Positions 16,862 through 55,012 of a stretch of 64,000 bases of DNA are shown here, piece after piece. The notes under the pieces are model-generated. The model saw only the letters and a program-made list of their open reading frames with translations. It was not told where the DNA came from and did no database searches. Made by a program: the position numbers and the translations under genes. Each line of letters begins with the position of its first letter. Position 1 is the first letter of the stretch. Source of the DNA: Anastatus disparis (lineage: Eukaryota; Arthropoda; Insecta; Hymenoptera; Eupelmidae); assembly GCA_017163975.1 (NCBI GenBank), contig JAFFSR010000365.1, positions 868,001 to 932,000 on the forward strand, given 5' to 3'.

Positions 16862-17160
16862 TCATTGCGACACGTGTGCTTTTGCGTATTGCTTGTTCGA
16901 TCCGACTTCGATTTCGTAAACGCATGGAGAAAGAACCGACACAATTTCATACAGACCGTCGTACTTGGGAGCGAGCTTCGCTGAGAATCGTTGCGCCGCA
17001 TTTGATAGAGGGTGCGTTCTTCGGATTACCTCATCGCCAACGCTAATTGAATATCTCTTCTTCCTTTATTATATATTCTTCCTTGTTTTTCTTTCGCTTC
17101 GTCGATAAATTTCGCTACTAGGTCTCTTAATGTATCAAGTCTCTTTATTCTATCTAGTCA
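16862..17160 (-). pseudogene. Gypsy integrase C-terminal region, frameshifted
   Basis: On the minus strand one frame from 17041 to the stop at 16862 reads VGDEVIRRTHPLSNAAQRF and continues with a KYDGLYEI motif of the GPY/F type that ends Ty3/Gypsy integrases and fixes integration. The piece just upstream (17160-17041) is in another frame and carries the basic stretch usually found between the catalytic core and this module. The plus-strand frame at 16846-17046 is only its shadow. It follows the integrase core at 17150-17616 in the correct order. Confidence 0.8.
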
Positions 17161-17616
17161 TGCTTCTGGGTCTACCTTATGTATTAGACCCGTTTCTTCG
17201 ACTTTTCTTCTAAGACTTTTTACTGGTCGAGGATGTTTACTATAATTAAGAAAAGTTGGTGATACCTTGGTTGATGCTTGGGTAGCAGTGTTTACCGCAT
17301 GGCGATATTCATGTATATGCTGGTCCCAATCTCTATGGTCTTGTTTCATAAAGGTGGCAGTCATAGTCTTCAATTTCTATTACTTCTCTCTACTGGATTA
17401 GCTTGTGGATGGTATAGCAGTGTTGTAACATATTTTACTCCATATTCTGTTAATACCTTGTCTAAGAACTTATTATCGAATTCCTTTCCATTATCTGTTA
17501 AAAATAGTCTAGAGTCTCCCATCTACGTAGAATAAGTTCTTTAAATGCTGTTGCTACCGCTTTACCATCTGCATTCCGTATGGGTTTTAATTCAATCCAC
17601 CTTGTGAATAGATCTT
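17150..17616 (-). pseudogene. Ty3/Gypsy integrase catalytic core, broken
   Basis: Reading on the minus strand the order is DLFTRWIEL (first catalytic Asp, 17613-17590), a frameshift near 17530, TDNGKEFDN (second Asp, about 17500-17475), YHPQANPVERSNRN (catalytic Glu), a stop, then the conserved WDQHIHEYRHAVNTATQAST and VSPTFLNY segment (17373-17158). The order and spacing match the DDE core of Gypsy integrases, which insert the cDNA copy into host DNA. At least one frameshift and one stop make it non-functional. The upstream end is fused directly to gag-type sequence: no protease, RT or RNase H lies between. Confidence 0.85.
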
Positions 17617-17624
17617 AACAACTG

Positions 17625-18411
17625 TTAGATCTCTTATAATTAGATGTTCGTTGCCTAGACTGTGGTGGGCATCTTGGATCCTGTGATCCGTTATAATCAC
17701 CATTTCTTGGTAGATTCCATCTAACTCGACCTTGATTTCCGTGATTTGGCCTCCTCTCGTAACTATTATCTTGTTATGATTGTTCTCCATGATTGTCGTT
17801 GGTAGTTCCTTTAGTCTCATAATTATCATTTTTATTTTGTTCTAAGCTTTCTTTATTGATATCTACAACCGCCGCTATAACTTGATTTCCTCTTTTCTCG
17901 CTAGTTGCCTCTACTTCATTCTGCTTACTTTTTTTATTCTTCTTATTTCTTTTCCTTTTATTACTCTTCTCGCTAGGATGATTTTCACTATCTTCTGAGT
18001 ATACTTCCTCGACCGCTGCTATCTTAGCTTTTATATAACGACCAGTATAGTCAGCTGTTGGTAATCTCATCTTTTCTTTTGGAGGTGGTGGTACGTATCG
18101 GCTGTCTAAATCCTTTTGACGTTTCCAGCGTCGACCATACCGTTCAATATCATCCAACGAATTTATTTCCTTATCCACCATTGCTCTTCTATATTCTGGT
18201 AATAAATTTTTAAATACCATATCTACTAGTTCTATTGATGATGGAGGAGATCTAAAATGTTTGATGACATATCTGAGACACGATAGATAGTTGGATATTC
18301 TCTCACCCTTAGCTTGGGTTCTCTATCTCAGTTCATCTATTAGATCTTCTCTGTATAACTCACCAATGAATTAATGGCAAAAAGCTTTTTTAAAGTGTGA
18401 CCAGGACGATA
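17625..18411 (-). pseudogene. Gypsy Gag: capsid (retrotrans_gag) region and basic tail
   Basis: Minus strand. Starting with SSWSHFKKAF (about 18411-18382), the frame runs through EDLIDELR, TQAKGERISNYLSCLRYVIK and FKNLLPEYRRAMVDKEINSL, the pattern of the retrotrans_gag capsid domain that assembles the particle. Two stops fall in the first part (near 18373 and 18325). From the Met at 18220 it is open for 148 codons, then a Lys/Asn-rich tail. After the stop at 17774 another frame continues with basic, Asn/Arg-rich nucleic-acid-binding sequence to about 17617. No CCHC knuckle is visible. Strong similarity to family; decayed. Confidence 0.8.
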
Positions 18412-18599
18412 TTTTTTCTTTTCTTGTGAGATACCATACGTTTGCTGCTCCAGTCAGCACTCCAGATATAGTTTTGATGATATCCTTTTCTTTGTAATTA
18501 TTGTTTTTTTAAAAATCATCTAACTAAGTTAGAAAATGTTCGGACCCTTCTTTACCATCACCAGAGAATTATAAGTTCCAAGTTCGTAGGACTTTCATA

Positions 18600-18990
18600 A
18601 CCCTTGTTACTTCGGCAGACCTTCTCCTTTTCTTAGATATTCTTTTATGAGTTTTTAATCTATGGCTGGGTAACACCTCTCCACTATTTTTGCTATCATT
18701 ACTGTAAGTATCATCGTCGCTACCGTCATCTTCGCTATAAGAATCTTCTTCATCTGACCCTTTTTTTCTATGCTTTTGGTCGTCCTCTTTACCTACGAAC
18801 AGCTCCTTATTCTTTTATTTTTTTTTTCTATTTTGTTTTTTTTCTTATCCTTGCTAGGTTTATCCTTTTTACTACTTCTTTCATCACTAATTCTCAACGA
18901 CTGATCACCATTATTAGAAAAATTCAATCTTTTCACCTTGGTTGGCTTGCTTACTTTCAGAGTAGAGCGTAGTCCAAGGTTCCTATCATC
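18600..18990 (-). pseudogene. Gag linker, frame-broken lysine-rich segment
   Basis: Between the two Gag parts the minus strand has short charged, Lys/Ser/Asp-rich pieces in alternating frames, with several stops and T-rich (A-rich on the sense strand) runs. Composition and position suggest the low-complexity linker of the same Gag protein after several small indels. No fold can be recognised. Confidence 0.45.
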
Positions 18991-19260
18991 TCAGTCCTCT
19001 AAATATGGGTTTGTTAGTAACGGGTTACTCTGCTTCATTTCCTTCCTTTTTCTTCCTCCTGTCAAAGTTTGAATCAGATTTTGATAAGTTTGATTAACGA
19101 TTTGGTTATTTCCCATCTCATCTTCACTATTAGAGTCTTCAGAGGTACCATTTCCACTACTAGAACTATTCAGAGCGTCCTTGGAGTTGTTAATTTCCCT
19201 TATCTTCACATTTCCCATATTATTTGTTATACTTGCAGTTCCTTCTATTCCTCTATCCAT
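18991..19260 (-). pseudogene. Gag N-terminal half, acidic Ser/Asn-rich piece
   Basis: Minus strand, 89 codons. The middle is Ser/Asn/Gly/Glu-rich (SSSSGNGTSEDSNSEDEMGN). The end resembles coding sequence rather than noise because its composition differs from the surrounding AT-rich DNA. It lies between the 19335-19829 frame and the capsid, in the same orientation, so I read it as part of the same broken Gag. Confidence 0.5.
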
Positions 19261-19334
19261 TGTAGATACAGTAGAATCTGGGGATGCTACGATTATCGGT
19301 CCAAATTTAATAAAGGTCTCACTATATGTAGGTT

Positions 19335-19829
19335 TTAAATTATTTGTACCTCTTCATCTGCACGGAGTTCTGAGTTTCTCTTTAGTATTTCTTCAATTTC
19401 TGGAGAAAGAAGCACTGATATCCTTTTCCGTTGTGGTCCTAGAGGTGGTAATATCAGATTACTCCAGATAGGTAATCCTGATACTTCTGTTAATTTATTT
19501 ATCTGTTTTTTTTGTTGGAGTATAGAATGATTAGTCCTCGCTAATAACGTCGTCAATTGTGATTTTAAAGTTTCTCGTGTAGAAGGCGGTGCTTTATCCT
19601 TTTCTACATCCGTATCCTTATCTGTGGTGTCTGTTTCTGTTGCTATAATCTCTGGTGCTTCCGATCGGTCTCCGGTTTCCGTTGATATTTTGTCCAAGTC
19701 GTCTGCTATTTCATCGGTTGCATACCAAGGGACATCCTTATCTGGTTCAGTATCCATGATATATGCCCTTAGTAATCTATTTTGTATAGCTAACACTGGA
19801 CCTTGCGAGTTTAGATTTCCCTCCTTCAA
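19335..19829 (-). pseudogene. Gag N-terminal region, longest open piece
   Basis: Minus strand, 164 codons, acidic at first (repeated Asp/Glu/Thr), then a probable coiled-coil stretch around residues 90-115, then a segment with LPIWSNLILPPLGPQ. It ends with a TAA shortly before the next frame at 19260. No conserved enzyme motif. The assignment rests on position (upstream of the Gypsy capsid, same strand) and codon-like composition. A different gene placed here by chance cannot be excluded. Confidence 0.5.
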
Positions 19830-20144
19830 CCTAGTTTAATCTTCTTGTGGATCTAATCGCTTAAGGCGACCTCGGAACTTAGATTAGGTTTCATTTCTTA
19901 GTTTACAAATCATACTTTTGATACATGAAATTTTTCAGATTTTTTAATTTTCTACCATTTTTTGATACCCATAGAATGGTGGAAAACTTATAAATCCAAA
20001 AAATTTTACAAAATAAAAGTTTAATTTGTAAACTACGAAGTAAAAATTTAGCCTAACCTCCGTAGTCACCTTTATAGTTCTCGCTAACTTTTTAAATTCT
20101 TTGTTCTTCTTCAATTTATCCATTTTTATCTTGTGGTCCGACAT

Positions 20145-24867: not shown

Positions 24868-25785
24868 AAATTTGATAACATTCAAACTTTTCTTAATAAT
24901 GAGTTTTACGGAGTGGAGAAGGGTTTCTTCGACCTTACAACCGGGGTAGCTGGCGTGGCACAGTCCGTCGTAGATCTCACGAGAACGGATGAGCATACAT
25001 TGCACACATCTAAATTTGTAGAAATGCTACAAACACCACATGCTCATACTGTAATTAGTGATGAGGCACCTCGACAAGTTGAGAAGGAGTGTGGCTCTGA
25101 GAGTGGTACATTGGTGGTCTCTAGCAAGTTTGACTGTTCAGCAGTTAATGTTGGGCTGGGTGATTACGCCTGTGTCGTTCTTGGTACCATTCTCCCGACA
25201 ATCAAGCGTACAAATGTAATTTCAGTTAAGAAAATCGCTAAACATGATGTAAATGGAGTGTCTACAGATCGTGGTATCAGTGGCGGCCCGAGTTAGACTT
25301 TCTGAAGAGGACCTGGTGCAAAAGGTGTTTGAAGCTAAACGACAATTCACAGGTTTTTCGACAACGGATCTTAATCTCTCCCTCCTTGGCAGTCTTCCAG
25401 CCATCAAACGCCACGGCTTGATATTTACTAATGAATTTTCGCCTAAAGAAAAATATGTTAATTTAAAAAAAAATAAAAGCATGCCAAAAAAAAAGGCTTT
25501 AAATTTGTTTGGCATAGACATGGCAAATTTCTGGTGAGGAGGGAGAGAGAGGAGAGAGCTCACAATTTTTTTAATGAAAATGACTTAGATAATTTACTGA
25601 CAGATAGTAAGAAATTAGAAGACGGTGTAAATGTAATTAATGAAAATTCTGAAACTTCATCGAATATTAAGTACAATAATAATATATGTGATAATAATGA
25701 AGCCTCTGAACATCAACGAAATATGTCGACAAATCAATTATTAAGTACAAATAATGGAGTAACTTCGAGTGTGGCCTCTCCCCAA
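24868..25785 (+). pseudogene. LINE ORF1 body with FP-like C-terminal domain
   Basis: Three frames joined by small shifts. 24913-25293: Val/Thr/Ser-rich linker. 25253-25490: DLVQKVFEAKRQFTGFSTTD and RHGLIFTNEFSPKEKYVNLK, the segment before the C-terminal nucleic-acid domain. After a shift in the A-run at about 25485-25500: KFVWHRHGKFLVRRE, the hallmark of the FP25-like C-terminal domain found in ORF1 of many insect LINEs. The protein then ends in an acidic, Asn/Ser-rich tail with a TGA at 25786-25788. ORF1 protein binds the element's RNA. The overlapping minus-strand frame at 25222-25563 is a shadow. Confidence 0.75.
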
Positions 25786-25819
25786 TGACTGCACCGGGCC
25801 TCCTCTGAGAGTTGTACAG

Positions 25820-26009
25820 GGAGGAGGGATGAACTGCGAGCGTGTTTTCTGAATGTGACTTCGCTGAGGGCTCACATTGAGCAGGTACGTGAGTTTCTAA
25901 GTGATGGTCCTTCTTGCGACATATTTGGAGTGGCTGAGACCTGGCTGGGTCCGTCTGTTTTGGATGACGTCATTCGGGTCAAGGGGTATAAAGTATTCAG
26001 ACATGACAG
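25820..26009 (+). pseudogene. LINE ORF2 endonuclease, 5' part
   Basis: Open frame with LNVTSLRAHIEQVREFLSD (first Asn of the APE-type endonuclease) and IFGVAETWLG (catalytic Glu), then the RVKGYKVFRHD strand, where it is cut by the fold-back at 26010. This domain nicks target DNA to prime reverse transcription. It begins about 35 bp after the ORF1 stop, the usual spacing. Confidence 0.85.
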
Positions 26010-26848
26010 CCCTACTGAAAAATATATATGAGATCTCATATGAGATCTCATTTATATTTTACATTTTCAACCCCACTAAAAAATATATATGAGATCTCAT
26101 ATGAGATCTCACATGCGATCTCAAATGAGATCCCACATGAGATCTCATATGCAATCTCATATCAGATCTCATATGAGATCCCGTATGAGATCTCATATAT
26201 ATTTTCTATTTTCAACCCTACTGAGAAATATAAATGAGATCTCATATGAGATCTCACATGCGATCTCATATGAGTTCTCGCATGAGATCTCATATTACAA
26301 TCTCATATATACTTTATATTTTCAACCCCGACTGAAAAATCTATATGAGATCTCATATGAGATCTCATATGCGATCTCATATGAGATCTCATATAGATAT
26401 TTCAGTAGGGGTTGAAAATATAAAGTATATATGAGAACTCATACGAGATCTCATATGAGATCTCATATGAGATTGTAATGTGTGGTCTCATGCGAGAACT
26501 CATATGAGATCGCATGTGAGATCTCATATGAGATCTCATATATATTTCTTTGTAGGGTTGAAAATAGAAAATATATATGAGATCTCATACGGGATCTCAT
26601 ATGAGATCTGATATGAGATCGCATATGAGATCGCATGCGAGATCTCATTTGAGATCGCATGTGAGATCTCATATGAGATCTCATATATATTTTTTAGTAG
26701 GGTTGAAAATGTAAAATATAAATGAGATCTCATATGAGTTCTCGTGCCAAAATCTCATATGAGATCGCATGTGAGATCTCATATGAGATCTCATATGAGA
26801 TCCCATGTGAGATCTCATATGAGATCTCATATATATTTTTCAGTAGGG
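26010..26848. mobile_element. Fold-back made of ATGAGATCTCAT-like words, inserted in LINE endonuclease
   Basis: The ends are CCCTACTGAAAAATATATAT and its complement (ATATATATTTTTCAGTAGGG). Between them are dozens of GAGATCTCAT/GAGATCGCAT words, themselves near-palindromic, organised as two inverted halves meeting near 26400. The halves share AACCCTACTGAAAAAT-type internal boundaries, so the element may be several nested or amplified units. The flanking LINE sequence has AG on each side. Removing the element and one AG keeps the endonuclease reading frame, which supports a clean insertion with a 2-bp target duplication. The apparent frames at 26028-26733 (both strands, MRSHMRSH repeats) are artefacts. 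Confidence 0.9.
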
Positions 26849-27202
26849 AGAAACTTGCGTGGTGGAGAAGTTGCTTTGTATATTAAAAACAATTTACAGT
26901 GCACTATTTTGGCTACTTCAGATACTCAAACTAATCATAGTTAAGGTAAACCGGAGGTACCTGAGTATATTTTTTGTTCCGTGCAATTGGGCAGCTCCGA
27001 CACCGTGTTAATTTCTGTTATTTATCAACCTCCTGCAATTTCCTTTCTTAGGAATAACGATTTTTTGGATAACTTGAGAAATTTTGCCTCTGAATACTCT
27101 CATAAAATTATAATGGGAGACCTGAATGCCGATCTCCTGCGCGAGAGCAGTGATGCCAAAATTAATAAATTGTCAGCTGAGCTTTCGTTACAGTTAGTTT
27201 AA
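26849..27202 (+). pseudogene. LINE ORF2 endonuclease, 3' part
   Basis: The frame resumes with RGGEVALYIKNNLQC, has one in-frame TAA at 26942, then FCSVQLGSSDTVLISVIYQP and HKIIMGDLNADLL, the conserved SVYQPP and GDLN (catalytic Asp) motifs of the endonuclease. It stops at 27200. The final SDH motif is not recognisable in the decayed sequence after it (27200-27420). Confidence 0.85.
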
Positions 27203-27559
27203 CACGGTGCCACGCATCACACTCTAACGTCTCACACATGGATTGTCCTAATTCCTGTGGACGATAATGACACAGTACTTGACGTATGCAACTTACTGGC
27301 GAATTTTCACAGTCGGCACAACTTAATTGATGTAATCATATCAAGACAGATAGTATAATAATTAAGTATATGAATTATAAAGATATCTGTCCAAACTTAT
27401 TTGTACATAGTTTGGCCGGCTGTGTTTAGACGCGTTTTACAGTTGGTACAATTGATCCGAAATCTGCACTTGGCTGCCTCTGTGACGACTTTACGGCAGC
27501 AATACAAAATCTGGCGCTACTAAAAACACTTAAAATTGGTAAAGATAAATTTCCTTGAA

Positions 27560-28473
27560 TAGATAAAGAGTTGTCGCAGATGCGGCATAAGTGAGTTGCC
27601 ACGTATCATAGATTTAAACGGACGAAGGAGGAGCGATATCTCTACAAATTTTCACAACTGCATAAAACAATAGACGAACAGACGGAACAAGCTAAAAAAA
27701 ATTATTATCATAATAGACTGTTCGATGCTCTTGCTAGAGGTAATGTCTGGAAGGAGTTAAAAGACCTAGGACTCCTGTCCGGACCTCAAGGGGACTTAAA
27801 TGGATTCACTCCAGATGAGCTTAATGTGCATTTTGCAGGGGTGCCAGTCTCGCCACACGATGATACTGCGGAACGTAAAAGGATTCTTCCTGAGTGTAGT
27901 GAAAGTGGCTTTGCCTTTAAGCCAATTAATATTAATGATGTAATCCTTGCGATTTCGCATTTTTCATCACAGGCTTGTGGCGAGAATGGCATTCCGCAGA
28001 GTGTGAAACTTAAAGCACTACTGGTTATTGGAGAGTATTTTGTGACTCTGTTCAATTCCTCTTTGGTGCGGGGGGTCTTCCCTTGCCTTTGGAAGTGTGC
28101 ATGCATTGTGCCTTTAAAGAAGTGCCCTGCACCTAAGATGCCTAAAGATTTTAGGCCTGTAGCAATATTATGTTTTCTTTTAAAGGTTCTCGAAAAGATT
28201 GCCCATGACCAAATGCAAGTTATGACACAAAAAATACTTGACTCTTTGCAGACTGGCTTCAGAAAGCATCATTCTATGCAGATTGCCATACTTAAACTTA
28301 TAGACGACATAAGATCAGGTCTTGACAAGAAACTTGCCACGATACTACTTCTATTTGACTTTAGTCAGGCATTCGACACGATCTCCCCTTTCAAATTGCG
28401 TGCGAGGCTTAGACTGGAAGAAATTCCTTTCAAGTTCAAGATGCGCATTTTTGGAACTCCCTGCCTGCTGATA
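27560..28473 (+). pseudogene. LINE ORF2 reverse transcriptase, N-terminal half, truncated
   Basis: Open from the TGA at about 27589 to 28473. The linker region (FSQLHKTIDEQTEQAKKNYY) is followed by RT motifs: DFRPVAILCFLLKVLEKIAH (motif 1), DSLQTGFRKHHSMQIAILKL (motif 2) and TILLLFDFSQAFDTI (motif A, catalytic Asp). Shortly after, the sequence jumps to the C-terminal tail, so motifs B (PQG), C (FADD) and the thumb are deleted. The RT would copy the element's RNA at the nicked site; here it cannot. Confidence 0.9.
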
Positions 28474-31129: not shown

Positions 31130-31690
31130 ACAAAGAAAATTAAAAGTAATAAATATCTTTTTCAAATTTTTTAAATTGAATAAATTATATAACAGATCCC
31201 ATGTGATATCACATATGAGATCGCATACGAGATTGCATATGAGATGTCACATGAAATCGCCTATGAGATCGCATATGAAATCGAATGTATATTCGTTAAA
31301 TTTTCAAAATAAAATAAATATATGTGCGATCTGACATGAGATCTCACATATATTTATTTTATTTTCAAATTTCAACGAATATATATGAGATTTCATAGGC
31401 GATTTCATATGAGATCTCACATGAGAGCTCATACAAAATTTTCAGTAAGAATGATTTTTCTTGGCTTGTTCTTGAAATTCATACATTGTTACACTCTTCC
31501 GATTCTCATATATTTAAAATAAGTTCATACCTATAAGTAGAATCGGTGGTAGTGCAGGGGCTAAGGCTCTTGGCTCATGCTGTAGTAGACTGGAGTTTAA
31601 TCCCCGGGAAAATTTGAAAAAATATTTCTGAATTTTTCTCTGTGAAATAGAACTAGGAGATCAGGAAAAACCAATTAAAAATTCTCTCTG
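31130..31690. repeat. Duplicated block, copy 1: GATC palindromes plus tRNA-like SINE
   Basis: This block recurs in the same orientation at 32890-33430 with few changes. It contains an inverted pair of ATGAGATCGCAT-type words centred on an ATTCGTTAAATTTTCAAAAT/ATTTTCAAATTTCAACGAAT pair (31196-31440), the landmark TTTCTTGGCTTGTTCTTGAAA, and then the tRNA-like head at 31541. The GATC words are of the same kind as the fold-back at 26010-26848 but the ends differ (CAAAATTTTCAGTAAG). Confidence 0.85.
31541..31690 (+). mobile_element. tRNA-derived SINE, copy 1
   Basis: AATCGGTGGTAGTGCAGGGG followed by CTAAGGCTCTTGG resembles an A-box/D-arm, and GGAGTTTAATCCCCGGG resembles a B-box/T-arm, with a body of about 80 bp (AGGAGATCAGGAAAAACCAA, then CTCTCTGGCCAAT). 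The same arrangement is at 33267. Internal Pol III promoter elements in this order are typical of SINEs; the parent tRNA cannot be named. Confidence 0.5.
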
Positions 31691-31794
31691 GCCAATAAAA
31701 ATTACAGGTCTCAGTTCACAGCGATCAAGAGACCCATTGTCAATAAAATAGAGGAGAAGATGATATCTCCCATCCCTAAATATAAAATGTGCAT

Positions 31795-32400: not shown

Positions 32401-32889
32401 TATTCCTGCTAGGAATTACAAACAATTCTGATATTTATTCATATGAAAAAAAAGAAATTTGTTTTTAAACTATATTTGATCGATAAAGTATAGGTCTACA
32501 GAAATCCTTAAAAATTTTGTTTTATAATAGGTCATTTATTTTTGTCCTTCTCTAATCTTAATTTCGACTTCATTATATATTGTGTCATGAAATGAATTTT
32601 TAAATTAGTGTTATTCAAAAACTAAATAGTAATAATAAAATATTATTTTTTTATAAATTATTGATTTTTTCAATAATAAAGCATAAAAGAAAGAAATAAT
32701 TTGACATTAGTGAGTAATAAAATAATCAATGATTGTTAATCACAAACATGTATTATTTGTAAGATATTAAAAGAAAATAGGCGCGTTTGTTCTAAGTTTA
32801 TCCTAGAGCAGGTCGCTCATCTTTGTCCTTTTATATTAAAGGAATGAAATTTCATTTTTAACTGCAGAATGTCTAAAAAAAGTTCTTTT
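32401..32889. other. AT-rich DNA, no gene seen
   Basis: Unremarkable AT-rich sequence between two repeat blocks. Confidence 0.6.
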
Positions 32890-33430
32890 TTTCAAATTTA
32901 TTAAATTTTTTTAATTGAATAAAATATATAAGAGATCCTATGTGAGATCACGTATGAGATCGCACACGAGATTGCATATGAGATGTCACATCAAATCGCC
33001 TATGAAATCGAATGTATATTCGTTAAATTTTTAAAATAAAATAAATATATGTGCGATCTGACATGAGATCTCACATATATTTATTTTATTTTCAAATTTC
33101 AACGAATATATATGAGATTCCATCGGTGATTTCATATGAGACCTCACATGAGAGCTCATACAAAATTTTCAGTAGGAATGATTTTTCTTGGCTTGTTCTT
33201 GAAATTCATACATTGTTACACTCTTCCGATTCTCATTTATTTAAAATAAGCTCATACCCATAAGTAGAATCGGTGGTAGCACAGGGGCTAAGGCTCTTGG
33301 TTCATGCTGTAGTAGACCAAAGTTTAATCCCTGAGAAAATTTTGCAAAAATTTTTCTGAATTTTTCCCTATGAAATAGAATTAGGAGACCAGGAAAAACC
33401 AATTAAAAATTCTCCCTGGTCAATATTTGT
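32890..33430. repeat. Duplicated block, copy 2: GATC palindromes plus tRNA-like SINE
   Basis: Direct copy of 31130-31690, lacking about 20 bp of the ATGAGATCGC words near 33000. It includes the second tRNA-like SINE head at 33267-33345 (AATCGGTGGTAGCACAGGGG, AGTTTAATCC). Confidence 0.85.
33267..33420 (+). mobile_element. tRNA-derived SINE, copy 2
   Basis: Second copy of the SINE described at 31541, with the same body (GGAGACCAGGAAAAACCAAT, CTCCCTGGTCAATA). The B-box is intact enough to recognise. The copy appears to have been duplicated together with its flank rather than inserted independently. Confidence 0.5.
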
Positions 33431-33792
33431 TACGAAGAAATTAATTAATTTGATTAAAATTACATCAAGAGGTGCGGTAGCGCCTCGGCGGCGAATTAAG
33501 GTACGAATATGAAAACGTCGAGGCGTTACTCTTATACTTTGAATTAGAGTGTTTAAAATTTTAAAATAGAATCTTATCAAAATGCAATCATTTTTATTTT
33601 ATCTTTAATTTAAAAAAAGTTTTATTACATTGTTTTCAGTCCTTAAATTTTTGTTTTTAGCCTATTACGTCACACTTTCGCATTTTAAGAGAGCTACAAA
33701 CGTCTTTTTTGTCTGCTATGGTATAGTGAGATCGTATATCAGTATATTGTATATATTCGGTGTCGTAACACATCTTGACTTGAGCTTGTTAT

Positions 33793-33796
<4 letters not shown>

Positions 33797-33857
<61 letters not shown>
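33797..33857. repeat. (TA)n microsatellite
   Basis: An uninterrupted run of TA of about 60 bp. The frame 33630-33890 translates it as alternating Tyr-Ile. Confidence 0.95.
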
Positions 33858-33862
<5 letters not shown>

Positions 33863-34144
33863 TTATTTTATACATACTTATTTCGTATAAACGTGTATGT
33901 TAGTAGTTTATTCGGTGTCGTGATGATAAATATGAATATAGTAAAATAAAAAAATAGATTATAAAATTTGACTTTAACTATTTGTGTTATTATATTACAT
34001 GTTTTCAACTATGTTTTTATTATATTAAATAATGATGATTATTATTTAAAAATTTCTTATTGAATAATATCTTGTACAACTTTTGAAAATCAATATGCTA
34101 TTATTCAAGTGATAAATAGTTTTGGAGATATGATGATGGATATT
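33858..34144. other. AT-rich DNA, no gene seen
   Basis: Nothing recognisable between the microsatellite and the first gene fragment. No terminal repeat was found that would mark the left edge of the fragment cluster. Confidence 0.5.
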
Positions 34145-34502
34145 ATTTAGTTGTTCAGGAGAAAATGATGTTTGCAAAATGCTTAGTCTTTCTTGAGAGA
34201 GCTCCAAGCTCATTTGTTTGCATAAACTATAAAAGCGTATGTTGTCTTTACTGCAAAATTTCGACCAACATCTATAGGAGAATCAGAATATATTACTTGT
34301 ACGTGCAAATGCTGTTAATATTATGTTGTATGCTAGCAACCAAATGCAACATAGTCGCATAGATCAAGAACTAAGGAATATTCTCTTTCAAAGTTATTCA
34401 ACACAGAAGCTAGATAACCGTTATATAAGAATGAGGGATGCCTCTCGTGGTGTACATTTGGGATTTGTTATTAAGCACTTACTATCTGCTACTAATTCAT
34501 AA
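34145..34502 (+). pseudogene. Unidentified decayed coding fragment
   Basis: One frame holds from about 34145 to a TAA at 34500, with three internal stops (after SLS, HKL and DQHL). The last 67 codons are uninterrupted: RANAVNIMLYASNQMQHSRI, then QELRNILFQSYSTQKLDN and RYIRMRDASRGVHLGFVIKH. Composition is clearly protein-like, Gln/Leu/Arg-rich and helical, against an AT-rich background. I cannot name the family. Its decay, strand and closeness to the APC1 fragment (40 bp downstream) suggest it belongs to the same cluster of captured gene pieces. Confidence 0.6.
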
Positions 34503-34542
34503 AACTTAAAATTTTATAAAAACAACCTTCATCTGTAAAGAA

Positions 34543-35430
34543 ATGAGTTTATCTGATCTTAAAAAGGTAATTATATATTTATATTTTCACAGTATTAATA
34601 TACTTTTTTTCAATTATTTAAAAATTTTTATTTTTGATAAAAAAATATGTTGTTTTAAAATAATCTATCAAATATCAAACATATTAGATTTTTATGTCTA
34701 TTAGATGATACAAATCAACAGTAATACTTATGTTTATTAAGATTATTAAATTTTTTTTATTTTCAGTATCTTACAAAAGAAGCAGCGGAAGATGACATAA
34801 GTAAAATATTATAACATATTGATGTACCAACAAATATGGATCCATGGCCACTATTTCACGATGGAGTTGCTACTGCATTACGTATTCATGTTGATTCAAC
34901 ATGGATTGTTTACAACAAACAACAGCAAAGTGAATTTAATATCGAATATTCAGGTTTTCTCATGGCTTTGAGACTTAATTGTCATCTTAAAAATCTCGCA
35001 CTATTTAGTATGTAGGAATATTTAGTTGAATTTCATGAAGCTACTAGCATTGGTTTATTACTAGGATTATTAGCTACGCATAGAGCATCAATGGATGTTT
35101 CCAGGTTAAAATTATTATCACTTCACGCAGAAAGTTCAATACCTCCAATCAGTGTAGAGTTGGATGTTCTACAAAATGTTGAAGTAGCCCCACTTATGGG
35201 TGTTGGATTAGTTTTTATGTTCAGGAAGAGGCTCAGATTTAGCAAATTTCCAGACACAGTTTATTATTATATAATAGAAGGTGATACTGGATCTTTTTGT
35301 GCAGCTCAGAAAGATAAATATAAATTACCCAGTTATCGAATAACAGAAGGTGAATTTATAAATATGATGTAGCTAGTGCTAGAGCAACCATGGCATTGGG
35401 CTTGATGTATCATAAAAAAATGTTTAAGTG
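34543..35430 (+). pseudogene. APC1 (anaphase-promoting complex subunit 1) gene fragment, with intron
   Basis: APC1 is the large scaffold subunit of the cyclosome ubiquitin ligase, with proteasome/cyclosome (PC) repeats. The match starts after an intron at HIDVPTNMDPWPLFHDGVAT, goes on with DSTWIVYNKQQQSEF and EYSGFLMALRLNCHLKNLAL, then ATSIGLLLGLLATHRASMDV and SVELDVLQNVEVAPLMGVGL, the most conserved part of the PC region. After GVGLVF about 70 residues are missing and it resumes at QKDKYKLPSYRITEGEF. A frameshift near 35365 leads into YDVASARATMALGLMYHKK. Two in-frame stops (34812 TAA, 35013 TAG), one deletion and one frameshift make it a pseudogene. Identification is from memory of the family pattern. 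Confidence 0.85.
34567..34766 (+). other. Retained intron inside the APC1 fragment
   Basis: After the exon end CTTAAAAAG stands GTAATTATAT, and after 200 bp of AT-rich DNA a T-rich tract ends in TTTATTTTCAG before TATCTTACAAAAGAAGC. Both splice sites fit the consensus, and the frame is open across the join (phase 0). A retained intron argues that this piece was copied from DNA, not from a spliced mRNA. Confidence 0.65.
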
Positions 35431-35444
35431 AATAATTTAAGTAA

Positions 35445-36143
35445 GAATTAGCTCAATTTTTAAAAACAGTTACAATTAAAATTGCTAGGGTTAGAGAACA
35501 TATTAAAGCAAATGACCCAATTTACAGGTATATTGAACGTTTAACTGTGTCACAATGTGTTAAATTTATTCATACATGTAAGGAAAAATTGAACCAGGCA
35601 CTGCAGTTAGTGTTTTAGCTTAACAAAGTATTTGAGAACCTGATACTCAAATGACATATGAACATTACTCGAGATGTAATTCTTATTAAGGAAATTATTT
35701 GCTAATCCAAAAATCAGTACTCCAATTGTTACAGTTCATTTAGAAGATGATACTGATCCTGAAAGTTTTTAGGACTTGAGGTTGCTAGAACAACTATTAT
35801 GACTGAAATTAAATGAGTTATGGAAAATCATGGAGTGAGTATTGATCATTGACATCCAATGCTTGTTGCTGATTTTATGACTAGCAGAGGAGAAGTCTTA
35901 GGTATAACAAGACCAGGTTTAGCAAAAATGAAAGAATCGGTGGTAAATTTAGCTTCTTTTGAAAAAACTGTTGATTATGGTCAAAAAGATGCTGTTAGTG
36001 GAGTATCAGAATACGTTATCCTGGGCATAGCATTTCCAGTTGGAACAGGGATTTTTAAATTATTTTATGAAGCAGAAAAAGACTCTCTAAAAACAAGAAC
36101 TTTATTATTTAATAATGCAAATCATAAGAAAGTGAATACGTAG
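35445..36143 (+). pseudogene. RNA polymerase III largest subunit (RPC1/POLR3A) C-terminal fragment
   Basis: RPC1 is the catalytic largest subunit of Pol III. The fragment reads KANDPIYRYIERLTVSQ and FIHTCKEK, then after a shift EPGTAVSVLA-stop-QSI and EPDTQMT (the EPGTQMT trigger-loop-region motif), then MNITRDVILIKEII and STPIVTVHLEDDTDPE. Here roughly 110 residues are missing. It continues with [78 protein letters not shown] and [16 protein letters not shown], matching the end of RPC1. The last 95 codons (35859-36143) are uninterrupted. Several stops and frameshifts lie upstream. It follows the APC1 piece by only about 15 bp, so two unrelated genes are joined. Confidence 0.88.
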
Positions 36144-36323
36144 CATTTAAATTTATATTTGAATCATATAAATAAATTTTTCAAACTCATATATTTTTTT
36201 TTATAAATACTTTATAAAAAGTATTCAAATATTTCTTAAAATTATTTCTCTTTCTGGTGTTTAAAATAAAAAAAGAGGAGCAAAATTTTTTTTTTTAAAT
36301 GTAAAGTAGTTTAATAAGTACAA

Positions 36324-36838
36324 CAAGAATTTAATACGCAAAGAGGTGATAGTAGATGGATGAGACAAAATGCCGCTCAAAAGCAACATGCTCATTCACA
36401 ACAAGTGAATGGTTATACTATATTCTTCCAAATGTTGCCTATTCTATTACTGATAGTTTTAACATTTATTTATAGCTTACATCATAGTTCCAAATATTCA
36501 CATAGAAATATTGGTATATAATATTTATAATCTATTGATTAGAAAAACTGTCGTCATAAATATTCGTACATAGAACAATTTAAAAGCTTAAAACTCCATA
36601 TTATGTAAAAGATAACTTTCATACAGAATATGATGGTAACATGAGAAGGCTTAAACACTCAGTTGGAGAAAAATACATGAATTTTTTGAGACATTCATGT
36701 TATAGGAAAAGAAATTATAGAGATTTAATGTTTTATCAAGCAACAAGTTGTGGCGATCATGAACAGATTCAACAGGCCAGAAATATAGAAAAACTTTTGT
36801 GTAAAAATCTTCAAGAGTTTAATTATACGTGTTATTAA
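36324..36838 (+). pseudogene. DNAJB12/DNAJB14-type J-protein, C-terminal fragment
   Basis: DNAJB12/14 are ER-membrane Hsp40 proteins. Part 1 (36324-36521): QEFNTQRGDSRWMRQNAAQK, then a membrane segment FFQMLPILLLIVLTFIYSL, then SSKYSHRNIGI-stop. Part 2 (about 36587-36838), in another frame: TPYYVKDNFHTEYDGNMRRL, then EKYMNFLRHSCYRKRNYRDL and QIQQARNIEKLLCKNLQEF. Both match the DUF1977-type end of the family in order. The J domain is absent. The gap between the parts holds a short indel region. About 180 bp separates it from the RPC1 piece. Confidence 0.75.
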
Positions 36839-37313
36839 GAGACTTTTGATAACAATTTGTAATTTTAGATAAATTTTCAAATTTCATTTAAATGTGCAAA
36901 ATGATTAAAAAATAGGTTTAATATAGAGATTCATTAGAATGTTTGAAAAAAAATATTTATAGGAAACTTATTCTGTTTCAAGCTGCTCTGTCGAAAACTA
37001 TTTTGTATTTTAATCTTGCCTTATCAGAATATTAAAATTTTCTTATTACGTAAATGTCATAAATAATACCACATTAAAATGAATACTTCAAAAATTTAGT
37101 TTGATGATTTGAAAATTTTTATGTTTAAGCTATATTGCAGTTAAAATAATAGATTGAAATTGCCTTATTTGTTCAGTTTTTTTGTAATATGTAAAATTAG
37201 TGCTATAGTAATGTTGCAAGAAACACTGTAAATAAGGTTCACAAATTATAATTTCAACGTAACTACTAATCAATTGAATATGATTTCGATAATACAATTT
37301 AGTCATTGGTGAA
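36839..37313. other. AT-rich DNA, no gene seen
   Basis: No coding signal, and no repeat that mirrors the left flank of the gene-fragment cluster. Confidence 0.55.
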
Positions 37314-37557
37314 ACCTTCGAGCATATACTACTGGAGGAAGCCTCCCAGCTATTAATTGCGTTACAAGGCGAAGAGAGAAAAAGCCTCTATTTTGGTACG
37401 TGCTATCTCTCTCTCACTTTCTTAGTGGGGAACAGAAGCAGCCAATCAAATCAGGCTAGAGAGAGACAGCACGTACCAAAATAGAGGCTTTCTCTCTCTT
37501 CGCCTTGTAACGCTTGCTGCAATTCGAAGGCTTCCTCCAGTAGTATATGCTCGAAGG
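37314..37557. mobile_element. Short fold-back MITE, about 245 bp
   Basis: The ends CCTTCGAGCATATACTACTG and CAGTAGTATATGCTCGAAGG are exact complements. The arms run about 105 bp each through GTTACAAGGCGAAGAGAGA and CCTCTATTTTGGTACGTGCT to a centre around 37420-37450. No coding sequence. Target duplication not clear. Confidence 0.9.
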
Positions 37558-38260
37558 GTAAAACAATTTTTTTTGTACATACCCTGGTAGAAAATAGACC
37601 ATTCAAAAATGGCCATCAGTCATTTATTAGTCATTTTTTATGACTAATTTTTTAATAACAAAATGACTAGAATATGGTGAAGTTGCTAATATATATAGAT
37701 ATATACTTCATGCAAATAAATTTATAGATATATTTCTTTTTTTTAACAGAAAGAATTTCTTTATAAAAATGAACTTGCTAATACGGTAAAGTTAAAACGG
37801 ATCACAAAAGGCCTAAAAATGATGTTACAACATGGTAAAAATGGCAGAGACTTTAAATAAATATTTTAGAGATTTAAGGTTAGTTCTCAGGCTGCCATGA
37901 CTCTGTTTTAACCTTACCTTGCACGTACGCTAAAAGAGAGTGAGAGAGAAAGAGAAAACGAGGAAGAGAGAGAAAAAGCGTTAGAGGCCAAAACTTGAGA
38001 GAACTGCAAAACAGACTCAAATTAATAAAGTAGTTCATTTTTTGAAAATTATGGAGTCTTCAAATGCTGGATCAGTGGATGAAAATGTTCAAATGTTCTA
38101 TTAATAGAGTATTTATTGTTTTTACTTAATACACAAAATACAAGAATAAGGTTTAATTTAGCAATGATATAAAAAACACTCTCAAGTTTAATGATCAGTT
38201 ATTTTAAGATACAGTGAATATTTATCGGTCCTTAAGGCACCACGGTTGATAAAAGAGTGA
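37558..38260. other. No gene seen; GA-rich tract
   Basis: AT-rich DNA with a GA-rich tract at 37930-37985 (GAGAGTGAGAGAGAAAGAGA). No supported frame. Confidence 0.6.
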
Positions 38261-38551: not shown

Positions 38552-39073
38552 TTAGATTAGATTTAATATTTTGTCTCTTAAGTATATATGTTTGTCTCTT
38601 GCGACGGGTTTTGTCATAATATCTGCTTTATTTTCATTTGTAGAGATCCATCCCACTATGACTTTACCATCTAAAACGCATGATTTTATATAGTCACCGT
38701 GTGTTGTTGCCATATGACTTTTACTGCCTGTCTGTTCTCTGACTTCTAATCTCTGTTTTATGGTAGATACATCTTCATCGAAATTTTTCAATCTGTGACA
38801 ACCATCCATCTGTGTACAATCACCAGCTGATTTGTTATCGCACCAAATGGTTACTGGATACAGAGTTTTACCAGTGATGTCACGTGAGGCTTTGTCAATT
38901 GACACAAGTTCTTGACAAGCATCGCTCATGGCTCGATACTCTGCCTGGCATGTCGAGAGAGTTATATATTTTTGTTTGCGGCTTCTCCAAGCAATGGTGT
39001 CACCAAATAACTTGATTACAAACCTTCTGGTTGAAGATGAGTCTTGCCAGTCTCCAAAGCCGGCGTCGGTCAT
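38552..39073 (-). pseudogene. Copia RNase H domain and pol C-terminus
   Basis: Minus strand, 173 open codons. TDAGFGDWQ (first Asp), AWRSRKQKYITLSTCQAEYR (catalytic Glu), TIWCDNKSAG (Asp) and the end NENKADIMTKPVARDKH are the standard RNase H and terminal motifs of Ty1/copia Pol, which removes the RNA strand during cDNA synthesis. The plus-strand frame at 38928-39203 is a shadow. The domain is the best preserved of the element. Confidence 0.92.
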
Positions 39074-39184
39074 AGCTTCTAATTTTTCTCCCTTTCCGAT
39101 GTATGTTAGTCCTAAGTTGACAGTACCTCTGAGATATCTATATATCCTTTTAATTTCTTTTCAGACGTCTTTTGTGGGATGCGT

Positions 39185-39691
39185 TTATTTCCTTGATAAA
39201 TAGTTGACTGCATAGGAGATATCTGGTTTTGTAGTCCCAGCTAGATACAATAGACTTCCTATGGCTTCTCTAAATGGTACATTCTTCTTTAATTCGTCCA
39301 TGCATATATCTTCTTGTTTTCTGACTTCTCGACTTTTGACTTGTCTGGTGATCATGGAAGTAGAATGAGTGTTGCATTCTTTCATGTTGAATCTATCTAG
39401 TATTTTCTCGGTGTATTTAGTTTGCTTGAGTTTTATGCATCTATTAGGCCTATCTCGGAATATGTTTATTTCTAGGAAACATCTTGGTTCTCCCAAATTT
39501 TTTATCTTGAACACTGAGCTGAGTTTTGTCTCTACTTCTTGCTTAATTCTGCAATTTCCTGCTAGAATGACATCGTCAAAGTATAGTATTATGAATACTA
39601 CTTTTCCTCATTTTTTCCGTGTGAAAAGATAAGGTTCATTTATATCTTTTTCTAGTCCTAGCTTTAGAGTTTCTTCAGAGGACCTCTTATT
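39185..39691 (-). pseudogene. Copia reverse transcriptase, C-terminal half
   Basis: Minus strand. From 39691: a stop (TGA) in a basic stretch, then IILYFDDVILAGN (the YVDD catalytic box as YFDD), then KIKNLGEPRCFLEINIFRD, KQTKYTEKILDRFNMKEC and REAIGSLLYLAGTTKPDISY, which is the conserved AIGSLMYL...RPDI end of copia RT. The Met-initiated frame starts at 39514, but the domain extends upstream past the catalytic box. One in-frame stop is visible. Confidence 0.9.
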
Positions 39692-40177
39692 TCATCTTTT
39701 AGGACTTATTTTTAGTGCATATAGTGACTTCTGGACTTTACAGACTTTATTATCGTGTACATTTTCTTCGTATTCTAGTCCGTCTGGCATTTTCATATAT
39801 ATATCTTCTTCTAAGGTTCCATGCAAGAAGGCTGTTTTTACATCTAATTGTATGGCGTCTAAGTCAAATTCATTAATGATGCTAAAAGCTGACCTAATCA
39901 GAGACATTCTTGTTTTCTTTCTGAAAACCCATCTAGAGTCTATGAAATTCATTTTCTTGTCTTTTGTTTTGCAGCTTGCCACATCCACTATTGTCCAGAC
40001 TTTGTTTTCCAGCAATGATTTCAGTTCCTCTTTCACGGCTACTTTCCATTGTTCTCTTTCTGTGGATGCCATAGTTCCTTGGTATGACACTGGGTCATCG
40101 TTGATTTCAACTAGTAATGCATGATGTTTTTCATCTTCCAGTACTGTTTCAGCACACTGCTCCTCTGCAGCTCTCAC
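39692..40177 (-). pseudogene. Copia reverse transcriptase, N-terminal half
   Basis: Minus strand. REQWKVAVKEELKSLLENKV and NFIDSRWVFRKK are the WxxAm.eEi.sl...kWVfkiK entry of copia RT. About 60 residues are then missing before EFDLDAIQLDVKTAFLHGTL and EEDIYMKMPDGLEYE, with the catalytic Asp in QLDVKTAFLHG. It ends at CKVQKSLYALKISPKR. The deletion and a stop after ISPKR disable it. Confidence 0.9.
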
Positions 40178-40597
40178 GTTCAGTCTCCATTTGGATTTAG
40201 CTGTTCTTTCTGGCTGTTTAACTTTCTTTTTGGGTGGTTCTTCAAAGGTCTGTGACTTTCTTTTCTTGGGTCTTCCTCTTTTTGGTCTTTCATTTACTTC
40301 TTTTACGTCTGATGTCTCCGAGAGTGTGATTTGATCTCCTTTATCTACATCTAGTTCTTTCTTGTCATCTACAATTTCGTTATTTTCAACATTTTCGAAT
40401 TCTAGTGTTTCCCGAGTTTGTTTGTATACGTCTTTATATACTAACTTCTCATTACATCTTACGTCCCTGGAGTTGATAAACTTCCTGGTTTTGGGGTGTC
40501 ATAATATATAGCCTGTGGTTGTGTAACCCACTAGAACTGCTTTTATTGCTCTTGCTTCAAATTTTGATTTGGCATCTGTTATTCTTGCATATGCTAT
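40178..40597 (-). pseudogene. Copia linker between integrase and RT
   Basis: Minus strand. A copia-typical AIKAVLVGYTTTGYI, a stop, then HPKTRKFINSRDVRCNEKLV is followed by a long charged linker with EVNERPKRGRPKKRKSQTF. One stop (at about 40500). This marks the integrase C-terminus and the connection to RT. Confidence 0.75.
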
Positions 40598-41085
40598 TCA
40601 ACCAAATCTTCTGATTTTTTCTTGATGATGTTTCTTTCCTGGGAGCATTACTTCTATTAGTGTTTTATATTTAAGTACGCTGTGTGGCGTCCTGTTGTAT
40701 ATGTGCACAGCTGCTTCTAATGCCAGAATCCACATACTTGCTGATAGACCTGAGTCAATCATCATAGTCCCTATTTTTCCTTGTATCGTCTTGTTGAATC
40801 TTTCCGCGGTTCCATTATGTTGCGGTGTATGTGGTGGTCCAAAGTTATTCTCAATTTTTTCTTTTGTAATTATCTCTGTAAATTTACCTCCAGTAAACTC
40901 TGTCCCATTATCTGCTCTTATATAGCATACCTTTACATCTTCTCTTAACATGTTCCTAGACTTCTTGAGGAATTTTTCCAAGCAATCTCCTGTTTCATTT
41001 TTATGTTTCATGGAGTATGCTTTGGCAAACCTAGAGTAGTCATCTATAAAAACTTCTATAAATCTGTTGCCTCATGGATACGATG
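40598..41085 (-). pseudogene. Copia integrase core
   Basis: Minus strand. EVFIDDYSRFAKAYSMKHKN (first Asp), CYIRADNGTEFTGGKF (second Asp), PHTPQHNGTAERFNKTIQGK (Glu) and NRTPHSVLKYKT are all present and in order, so the DDE triad is complete. It is open for more than 150 codons to 40598, where the frame ends near KIRRFG. Integrase joins the cDNA to host DNA. The plus-strand frame at 40695-40925 is a shadow. Confidence 0.92.
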
Positions 41086-41600
41086 CTGGTTAGATTGGTC
41101 CCATTTCGTCTGGTTACCTTATCTCTGATTTCCTTGAATGGGAGATTTTCTATTTTTTCCCATTTTGCAAGATTCTAGTATATTTCCTCTTAATTTGATT
41201 TTCTTTAGAAAGTCTAAGTTTTGTTGTAGGTATTTTAGGTATCTTAAAGACATGTGTCCTAACCTTAAATGCCACAACATTCCCACGTCTAACTGGTCTT
41301 TTGTGACTTTTGGATTTTTTTCACTTGTTAGTAGACCATCAAGCATTAGTACATCTTTAACATTGTTTATGTCTATAATTTTGTCTTTTAGTGAGATTTC
41401 CTCGTCATTTTTGCTTTCTGGGACTTCATGTTTTTCATTCTCCCTCCCAATCTCAGACGGTGTGGCTGTACTTCCTTGAGGTTCTATATTCTCCGATTGA
41501 GATTCTTGTATGAAGTCTTCTAGTGAAACCAGTCTTGCTTCATATTGATATTCTTCATAGTCTTCTGTTGTTGAGTTGTGGTTACTTCTTATAACTTCTA
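41086..41600 (-). pseudogene. Copia pre-integrase (zinc-binding) domain and upstream linker
   Basis: Minus strand. The frame from about 41600 carries EDYEEYQYEARLVSLEDF and an acidic linker. GMLWHLRLGHMSLRYLKYLQ with the HxxxGH motif follows, then SCKMGKNRKSPI (single remaining Cys of the CxxC pair), the gag_pre-integs domain. Upstream it ends abruptly at about 41600, where unrelated sequence and the TIR element at 41668 begin. Confidence 0.85.
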
Positions 41601-41667
41601 ATGTAACGAACCATCAACGCTACCTATTACGCTACGGTACGCTTGTTACGAACACTGATCATTTCTT

Positions 41668-51678: not shown

Positions 51679-51910
51679 ACTGTTGTTTTTACCATATTCA
51701 TCATGCTCAGGAAATTTGAGAATGATCAAAAAAATGGTACTTTTTTGATAGTTCAAGAAACACACGTAGAAAAATATAAAAAAAAGTATAATTTTTGACG
51801 TATAAAATTATGTACCGTAAATACCAATTTTCCAATCGATACCAAAATTTAATTACATATTCTACTACAAGAAACGAGTAACTTAAACCCTTATTGAAGT
51901 GTGAACTGCC
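51679..51910. other. Lead-in to satellite array, no gene
   Basis: AT-rich DNA. The minus-strand frame at 51707-51913 has no family resemblance. Confidence 0.5.
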
Positions 51911-54900
51911 CACTCCAGAAACTTGTATTATAGACTTTTCAATTGTTGTCAGGTCGAGATCTCAAAATTAAAAAGTTCCAGAGATATCCCCACATACATC
52001 ATATAATTTTTTTAATTTTAACTCTTGAAAGTGCTGAAATGAATTGAATAATTATCATAAAGTTTATACTTTTTACTTGATTTATCTATAGTTTGCTTAA
52101 GAAAGTTTTGAAATCAATTAAGCATTCGTAGATAAGCAAAATGATAAGCCACTCCAGAAACTTGTATTATAGACTTTTCAATTGTTGTCAGGTCGAGATC
52201 TCAAAATTAAAAAGTTCCAGAGATATACCCACATACATCATATAATTTTTTTAATTTTAACTCTTGAAAGTGCTGAAATGAATTGAATAATTATCATAAA
52301 GTTTATACTTTTTACTTGATTTATCTATAGTTTGCTTAAGAAAGTTTTGAAATCAATTAAGCAATCGTAGATAAGCAAAATGATAAGCCATTCCAGAAAC
52401 TTGTATTATAGACTTTTCAATTGTTGTCAGGTCGAGATCTCAAAATTAAAAAGTTCCAGAGATATCCCCGCATACATCATATAATTTTTTTAATTTTAAC
52501 TCTTGAAAGTGCTGAAATGAATTGAATAATTATCATAAAGTTTATACTTTTTACTTGATTTATCTGTAGTTTGCTTAAGAAAGTTTTGAAATCAATTAAG
52601 CAATCGTAGATAAGCAAAATGATAAGCCACTCCAGAAACTTGTATTATAGACTTTTCAATTGTTGTCAGGTCGACATCTCAAAATTAAAAAGTTCCAGAG
52701 ATATCCCCACATACATCATATAATTTTTTTAATTTTAACTCTTGAAAGTGCTGAAATGAATTGAATAATTATCATAAAGTTTATACTTTTTACTTGATTT
52801 ATCTATAGTTTGCTTAAGAAAGTTTTGAAATCAATTAAGCATTCGTAGATAAGCAAAATGATAAGCCACTCCAGAAACTTGTATTATAGACTTTTCAATT
52901 GTTGTCAGGTCGAGATCTCAAAATTAAAAAGTTCCAGAGATATCCCCACATACATCATATAATTTTTTTAATTTTAACTCTTGAAAGTGCTGAAATGAAT
53001 TGAATAATTATCATAAAGTTTATACTTTTTACTTGATTTATCTATAGTTTGCTTAAGAAAGTTTTGAAATCAATTAAGCAATCGTAGATAAGCAAAATGA
53101 TAAGCCATTCCAGAAACTTGTATTATAGACTTTTCAATTGTTGTCAGGTCGAGATCTCAAAATTAAAAAGTTCCAGAGATATCCCCGCATACATCATATA
53201 ATTTTTTTAATTTTAACTCTTGAAAGTGCTGAAATGAATTGAATAATTATCATAAAGTTTATACTTTTTACTTGATTTATCTGTAGTTTGCTTAAGAAAG
53301 TTTTGAAATCAATTAAGCAATCGTAGATAAGCAAAATGATAAGCCACTCCAGAAACTTGTATTATAGACTTTTCAATTGTTGTCAGGTCGACATCTCAAA
53401 ATTAAAAAGTTCCAGAGATATCCCCACATACATCATATAATTTTTTTAATTTTAACTCTTCAAAGTGCTGAAATGAATTGAATAATTATCATAAAGTTTA
53501 TACTTTTTACTTGATTTATCTATAGTTTGCTTAAGAAAGTTTTGAAATCAATTAAGCAATCGTAGATAAGCAAAATGATAAGCCACTCCAGAAACTTGTA
53601 TTATAGACTTTTCAATTGTTGTCAGGTCGAGATCTCAAAATTAAAAAGTTCCAGAGATATCCCCGCATACATCATATAATTTTTTTAATTTTAACTCTTG
53701 AAAGTGCTGAAATGAATTGAATAGTTATCATAAAGTTTATACTTTTTACTTGATTTATCTATAGTTTGCTTAAGAAAGTTTTGAAATCAATTAAGCAATC
53801 GTAGATAAGCAAAATGATAAGCCACTCCAGAAACTTGTATTATAGACTTTTCAATTGTTGTCAGGTCGACATCTCAAAATTAAAAAGTTCCAGAGATATC
53901 CCCACATACATCATATAATTTTTTTAATTTTAACTCTTCAAAGTGCTGAAATGAATTGAATAATTATCATAAAGTTTATACTTTTTACTTGATTTATCTA
54001 TAGTTTGCTTAAGAAAGTTTTGAAATCAATTAAGCAATCGTAGATAAGCAAAATGATAAGCCACTCCAGAAACTTGTATTATAGACTTTTCAATTGTTGT
54101 CAGGTCGAGATCTCAAAATTAAAAAGTTCCAGAGATATCCCCGCATACATCATATAATTTTTTTAATTTTAACTCTTGAAAGTGCTGAAATGAATTGAAT
54201 AATTATCATAAAGTTTATACTTTTTACTTGATTTATCTATAGTTTGCTTAAGAAAGTTTTGAAATCAATTAAGCAATCGTAGATAAGCAAAATGATAAGC
54301 CACTCTAGAAACTTGTATTATAGACTTTTCAATTGTTGTCAGGTCGAGATCTCAAAATTAAAAAGTTCCAGAGATATCCCCACATACATCATATAATTTT
54401 TTTAATTTTAACTCTTGAAAGTGCTGAAATGAATTGAATAATTATCATAAAGTTTATACTTTTTACTTGATTTATCTATAGTTTGCTTAAGAAAGTTTTG
54501 AAATCAATTAAGCAATCGTAGATAAGCAAAATGATAAGCCACTCCAGAAACTTGTATTATAGACTTTTCAATTGTTGTCAGGTCGAGATCTCAAAATTAA
54601 AAAGTTCCAGAGATATCCCCGCATACATCATATAATTTTTTTAATTTTAACTCTTGAAAGTGCTGAAATGAATTGAATAGTTATCATAAAGTTTATACTT
54701 TTTACTTGATTTATCTATAGTTTGCTTAAGAAAGTTTTGAAATCGATTAAGCAATCGTAGATAAGCAAAATGATAAGCCACTCCAGAAACTTGTATTATA
54801 GACTTTTTAATTGTTGTCAGGTCGATATCTCAAAATTAAAAAGTTCCAGAGATATCCCCACATACATCATATAATTTTTTTAATTTTAACTCTTTGAAAG

Positions 54901-55012
54901 TGCTAAAATGAATTGAGTAATTATCATAAAGTTTATACTTTTTACTTGATTTATCTATAGTTTGCTTAAGAAAGTTTTGAAATCAATTAAGCAATGGTAG
55001 ATAAGCAAAATG
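51911..55012. repeat. Satellite array, 239-bp unit, 13 copies
   Basis: The landmark CACTCCAGAAACTTGTATTA recurs at 51911, 52150, 52389, 52628, 52867, 53106, 53345, 53584, 53823, 54062, 54301, 54540 and 54779, always 239 bp apart. The units differ by only a few bases; the last is a little shorter and more diverged, as at an array edge. Diagnostic variants (CATTCC, CGACATC, CCCCGCAT, ATCTGTAG, CTTCAAAG, AGTTATC) show higher-order structure: copies 1-3 resemble copies 4-6, and copies 7-8 resemble 9-10. No long open frame. Confidence 0.97.

Follow-up and report, generated by a model that had tools for sequence, protein, structure and literature searches.

Fragments of four host genes in the Anastatus disparis genome are most likely cargo of a Helitron-like transposon

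The window analyzed here, a 64,000-nucleotide stretch of the Anastatus disparis genome (contig JAFFSR010000365.1, positions 868,001 to 932,000), harbors fragments of four host genes, all on the + strand, as had been proposed in a preliminary description and as is confirmed by domain and structure searches and by alignment to the parent genes. The first consists of an NUP205 exon fragment (34194..34566; 84% identical to the parent on contig C354, locus L046), a shortened NUP205 intron with GT...AG kept (34567..34766; its 3' part 80% identical to the parent intron), and the start of the next NUP205 exon (34767..34805, placed by alignment to the parent). It is followed by an internal APC1 fragment with a deletion of ~135 bp (34808..35416; 86–87% identical to the intact parent on C248, L045), a 3' fragment of RPC1 (POLR3A) that includes the stop codon and the first AATAAA (35421..36176; parent on C240, L052), a spacer (36177..36319; compared with copies L021 and L023), and an intronless DNAJB12-type fragment with its 3' UTR (36320..37314; aligned to the parent on C11, L050+L051). 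The gaps between the pieces, put earlier at about 40, 15 and 180 bp, shrink to ~2, 4 and 143 bp when the DNA is aligned to the parents. The parents lie on four different contigs and are neither neighbors in the assembly nor arranged in the order of the fragments. Moreover, the pieces are decayed, as previously noted: the majority sequence of the genomic copies still holds stops and frameshifts, which implies that the breakage of the pieces preceded the spread of the copies.

The identities assigned earlier to APC1 and RPC1 (POLR3A) were borne out by PDB matches (E=8e-42 and E=1e-38, respectively), and that of the fourth piece held at the level of the DNAJB12/14 type through a match to DUF1977 (E=1e-14), the C-terminal domain of DNAJB12/14-type proteins; the gene name DNAJB12 is taken from this domain. 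The first fragment had been left without a gene name. Comparison of the window's own fragment with Pfam and PDB yielded nothing useful, and the name NUP205 came via homologues and the parent exon pair, which matched Nup205 over residues 53–206 (whole-sequence E=4e-4; domain E 0.01); Pfam gave these parent exons no name. The parent on C354 comprises an exon with an open 158-aa frame followed by an intron of ~0.5 kb. NUP205 exon pieces are abundant genome-wide (at least 150 matches among 292 candidates), and many contain stops. The APC1 and RPC1 parents have open frames of 1,577 and 1,383 aa, respectively, so that large parts of these genes (C248, L045; C240:4083990) contain few introns, if any; 2.4 kb of the RPC1 frame were inspected in the alignment.

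A DNA-level search across the 399 contigs (939 Mb) of the genome to which the window belongs revealed at least 95 stretches matching the block, the window's own included, with the best 40 of 851 candidates scored. Since the block is multicopy, it cannot as a whole be a one-off repair patch of ectopic DNA, a possibility considered earlier. Twenty loci of 10 kb each were fetched for comparison of the copies. The fetched copies are collinear from 33464 onward and share the unusual joins of the window copy: the RPC1 deletion recurs in 13 of the 20 loci, the NUP205/APC1 and APC1/RPC1 joins in nine each, and the APC1 deletion in eight, the remaining loci being truncated, interrupted or members of another group. 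This recurrence implies that each join arose once, before spreading. The 14 longest rows of the alignment differ from the majority sequence by 2.9–7.7%, and two related loci, L027 and L028, by 10–11%. The loci L019 and L020 overlap on C298, where two copies are only 0.1% apart.

The window copy of the Helitron-like element extends over 33465..37590 (+ strand) and is collinear with genomic copies from 33464/33465 to 37314; the interval 34145..36838 delimited earlier was therefore short at both ends. Its 3' part is broken by a later MITE insertion (37315..37565, no strand assigned), recognizable by its inverted arms with the terminal inverted repeat CCTTCGAGCATATACTACTGGAGGAAGCC and absent from seven of nine displayed copies, which run on, the other two ending earlier; ~25 bases of the element (37566–37590, recognized by reading) remain beyond it. 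No boundary had been found before, and the carrier had been thought possibly undescribed or lost. The left end can now be placed and the kind of carrier named. The left border is sharp at 33464/33465, where a host A meets TCAAGAGG..., and sequences to the left of 33464 are immediately unrelated among the copies. The conserved 5' terminal region (33465..33628), which begins TCAAGAGGTGCGGTAGCGCC..., follows the host A at 33464, and the A/TC junction is present in all 15 fetched copies that keep the 5' end, the window included. Seven of these (window included) were obtained via the gene block and eight via a search with the 5' end (best 40 of 949 candidates scored), the latter providing a biased test of the A, with which the query began; L009, in which the first 46 bases are missing, does not enter the border count. 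Among the 40-base flanks of the 15 copies, no pair agrees at more than 19 positions. The 5' motif occurs once in the window, with 0 expected.

An empty site was recognized by eye for one sister copy on C385 (copy A), which contains none of the four genes: a nearby inverted paralogue reads CTCTATA/TTTTATTTTCG, corresponding to the filled CTCTATA/TCAAGAGG...TTCTAAAG/TTTTATTTTCG. By this one paralogous empty site, the insertion of copy A separated an A from a T and duplicated no target bases. Copy A ends in CTAAAG, not CTRR, its last bases being a 7-bp hairpin (TTTAGAA-6 nt-TTCTAAA) followed by G. The same hairpin also occurs inside copies, and the end of copy A is possibly premature, at an internal hairpin. 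The comparison of copies suggested earlier as a way to find the borders thus delivered many copies and a sharp left border, but not the right end of the gene-carrying subfamily: tandem arrays and nested insertions defeated the attempt to place this 3' end by comparison of downstream flanks. Terminal inverted repeats were not seen, the 200-bp 5' end being present in one orientation only at each locus that has it (L001–L044). The genome contains at least 150 Rep matches to Helitron_like_N (all 150 scored, of 5,095 candidates, exceeded the cut-off), eight of the 150 with open frames of at least 1,400 aa; none of them is tied to the 5' end of the element, and no match was found in the 14 control genomes (0/14). 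The 5' border, the empty site without duplication and the Rep-rich genome together indicate that the carrier is most likely Helitron-like. The gene-capturing transposon considered previously is supported by these results, and the Helitron type was among the carriers then named.

Several further features were observed in the window and in a sister copy. A 239-bp satellite array (window 51910–55012) contains ~130 bp that are 79–80% identical to the right-hand part of copy A; the satellite may derive from arrays of the element, or the reverse. A sister copy on C44 (L036+L042+L044) includes a 2.9-kb palindromic stretch that is 95% like its own reverse complement. Frames at window positions 38555–41613, 25253–28473 and 16240–19850 resemble, from reading of their translations, Copia, non-LTR and Gypsy-like elements, respectively. 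Window positions 31158–31697 and 32888–33425 hold two copies, 1.73 kb apart and ~90% alike over matched stretches, of a repeat that may include a tRNA-like SINE, a label given by reading. Rfam and tRNA scans gave nothing. Neither the block searched against phage records nor the 5' motif searched against viral contigs found a match, and a viral carrier accordingly has no support.

The captured pieces differ in how they relate to their parents. The NUP205 intron and its splice sites are kept in the window copy and its relatives, and L025 retains sequence of both NUP205 introns, its match to the parent beginning 44 bases upstream of the exon; with its introns kept, NUP205 was taken up as genomic DNA. 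The APC1 and RPC1 pieces are uninformative on splicing because both lie within the long open frames of their parents. The RPC1 piece aligns in two parts (35421–35763 and 35768–36176; 77% and 87% identical to the parent) that flank an internal deletion of ~0.47 kb at 35763/35768, where the alignment shows a short TGAA overlap, and the APC1 deletion at 35205/35214 has a microhomology overlap of 9–10 bp; with short overlaps at both, the deletions would fit end joining. L021 and L023 hold ~190 bp of RPC1 3' flank at the left edge of the spacer, absent from the window copy. In these two copies the RPC1 sequence follows the 3' flank of the parent beyond the positions of two AATAAA motifs, and in this respect it looks like genomic DNA.

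The DNAJB12-type piece appears, by contrast with NUP205, to be derived from a spliced copy, since three parental introns are exactly absent. The parent on C11 has introns of 67, 70 and 81 bp within the captured stretch, and its exon ends at 439, 622 and 856 meet the starts at 507, 693 and 938 with zero bases missing, at 36401/36402, 36490/36491 and 36719/36720 of the window copy. The introns are missing wherever an alignment spans these joins (12, 9 and 9 of the 20 loci, respectively). Positions 36508–36557 of the window's piece are absent from aligned copies. In the five furthest-reaching copies, the DNAJB12 stretch stops near parent position 1710–1724, and no poly-A was seen at this end. Another intronless decayed DNAJB12-type copy on C51 aligns without introns over 36320–36891, which indicates that retropseudogenes of this gene exist and makes one of them the simplest source; the source was thus probably a processed retropseudogene. 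Alternatively, DNAJB12 mRNA or cDNA could have served as filler or as a switch template during repair of the replicating Helitron, with no retropseudogene stage, a route that we regard as unlikely. Two candidates were discarded in this part of the analysis: a J domain seen on reading the translated C51 copy, for which Pfam gives no confirmation, and C54 as an intron-bearing DNAJB12 parent, which turned out to be an element copy with an insert.

Relatives that carry only part of the cargo form a graded series. In seven sister copies that retain the 5' end, no piece of any of the four genes is present (1.2–7 kb fetched); L039, with the same 5' end, has of the four NUP205 only (1.2 kb fetched); and L027 and L028 contain NUP205 and APC1, match neither RPC1 nor DNAJB12 at E 1e-6, and lack the 5' end within the 10 kb fetched. 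Their APC1 piece is fuller, that of L028 measuring 818 bp and being free of the deletion, and in L028 an extra exon-like piece of 56 aa with an apparent 3' splice site lies between NUP205 and APC1 (~5030–5170, oriented); no name was obtained for this piece from searches that included Pfam. These partly assembled relatives suggest stepwise capture. The order is read from one genome and could partly reflect loss; loss alone fits less well, because L027 and L028 hold the fuller APC1. Simple addition is also not the whole story, since L039 has its NUP205 pieces in a scrambled arrangement, and L013 and L022 carry them in duplicate.

Taken together, the block very likely represents cargo carried by a non-autonomous Helitron-like rolling-circle transposon, which would have been filled stepwise and then spread. 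The block could instead have begun as a chimeric retrocopy, made by a LINE reverse transcriptase switching among NUP205, APC1, RPC1 and DNAJB12 transcripts, with the fusion being multiplied later. Three-part chimeras formed by template switching are on record in the portion of the literature covered (PMC2104539), and the sense orientation of all four pieces, their near-direct joins and the exactly spliced DNAJB12 piece agree with such an origin. It is nevertheless very improbable in view of the retained NUP205 introns, the passage of RPC1 in L021 and L023 beyond two parental AATAAA positions, the end of DNAJB12 without visible poly-A, the Helitron-like 5' border common to the copies and the partly assembled relatives. 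The combination of traits expected of a LINE-made processed chimera (intronless, poly-A, target duplications) was not found, the duplications being checked by eye. Likewise, the possibility raised earlier that each fragment was an independent old insertion gained nothing from an inspection of the joins by eye, not systematic, in which no poly-A or target duplication was seen around single pieces.

Two explanations invoke other modes of dispersal. The absence of an inverted second 5' end in L001–L044 and the one empty site without target duplication make capture of the Pack-TIR or Pack-MULE type exceedingly unlikely, even though such elements are described as fusing host gene pieces too (PMC8277862). 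Segmental duplication or satellite-like dispersal, with no transposon involved, can draw on the nearly identical C298 copies, which show that local duplication happens, and on the tandem arrays to the right of related copies. It is barely plausible, however, as an account of copies that are found on many contigs with one exact left border and unrelated flanks.

Under the Helitron-like reading we infer rolling-circle movement, the succession of events, uptake of gene pieces during break repair and an outside supply of helper proteins. The element would have taken up genomic NUP205 DNA (an exon with adjoining introns) and an APC1 piece, and the RPC1 3' piece and the DNAJB12 piece would have come later. 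Little filler, if any, would have been added at the joins, which most likely formed during break repair or by template switching within the element. Once complete, the chimera would then have spread, probably relying on Rep/helicase from other Helitrons in the genome.

As far as the cited accounts go, stepwise capture of multiple gene fragments is described for maize Helitrons (PMC3288121), silkworm Helitrons contain one to six gene fragments per element (PMC3789558), and stepwise acquisition in Hel1 of Spodoptera frugiperda is explained by filler DNA (PMC6544945). The present element may be counted as a further example of this known kind, to which the multi-fragment Helitrons of maize and silkworm belong. 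It resembles these in that a single element combines pieces of several host genes, and differs from them, in those accounts, in that no CTRR 3' end was found here and that intronless cargo stands beside intron-bearing cargo. With insect Hel1 it shares a 5' TC, an A/T insertion site that is not duplicated, an important 5' end and, apparently, stepwise acquisition (PMC6544945). Hel1 consensus lengths of 162–257 bp are given (PMC6544945), whereas the present element spans several kb with four coding pieces; the likeness drawn here is one of structural features. The fusion of pieces from several transcripts recalls the tripartite LINE template-switch retrogenes, but the chimera described there is flanked by 14-bp direct repeats (PMC2104539), whereas none were seen here and NUP205 introns are kept. 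Within the parts of the literature covered by a limited search, no clear case of retrogene capture by Helitrons and no statement on mixed intron-bearing and intronless Helitron cargo was found.

Two features are distinctive in A. disparis: a base-level series with identified parents, and cargo of mixed intron state. The series (5' end only; NUP205; NUP205 and APC1; all four), with its exact joins in one animal genome, allows models of Helitron gene capture to be tested at the level of single bases. The mixed cargo raises the question of whether spliced sequence enters Helitrons via retropseudogenes or directly; direct uptake of a transcript, if true, would mean that one Helitron carries both DNA-copied and RNA-copied cargo.
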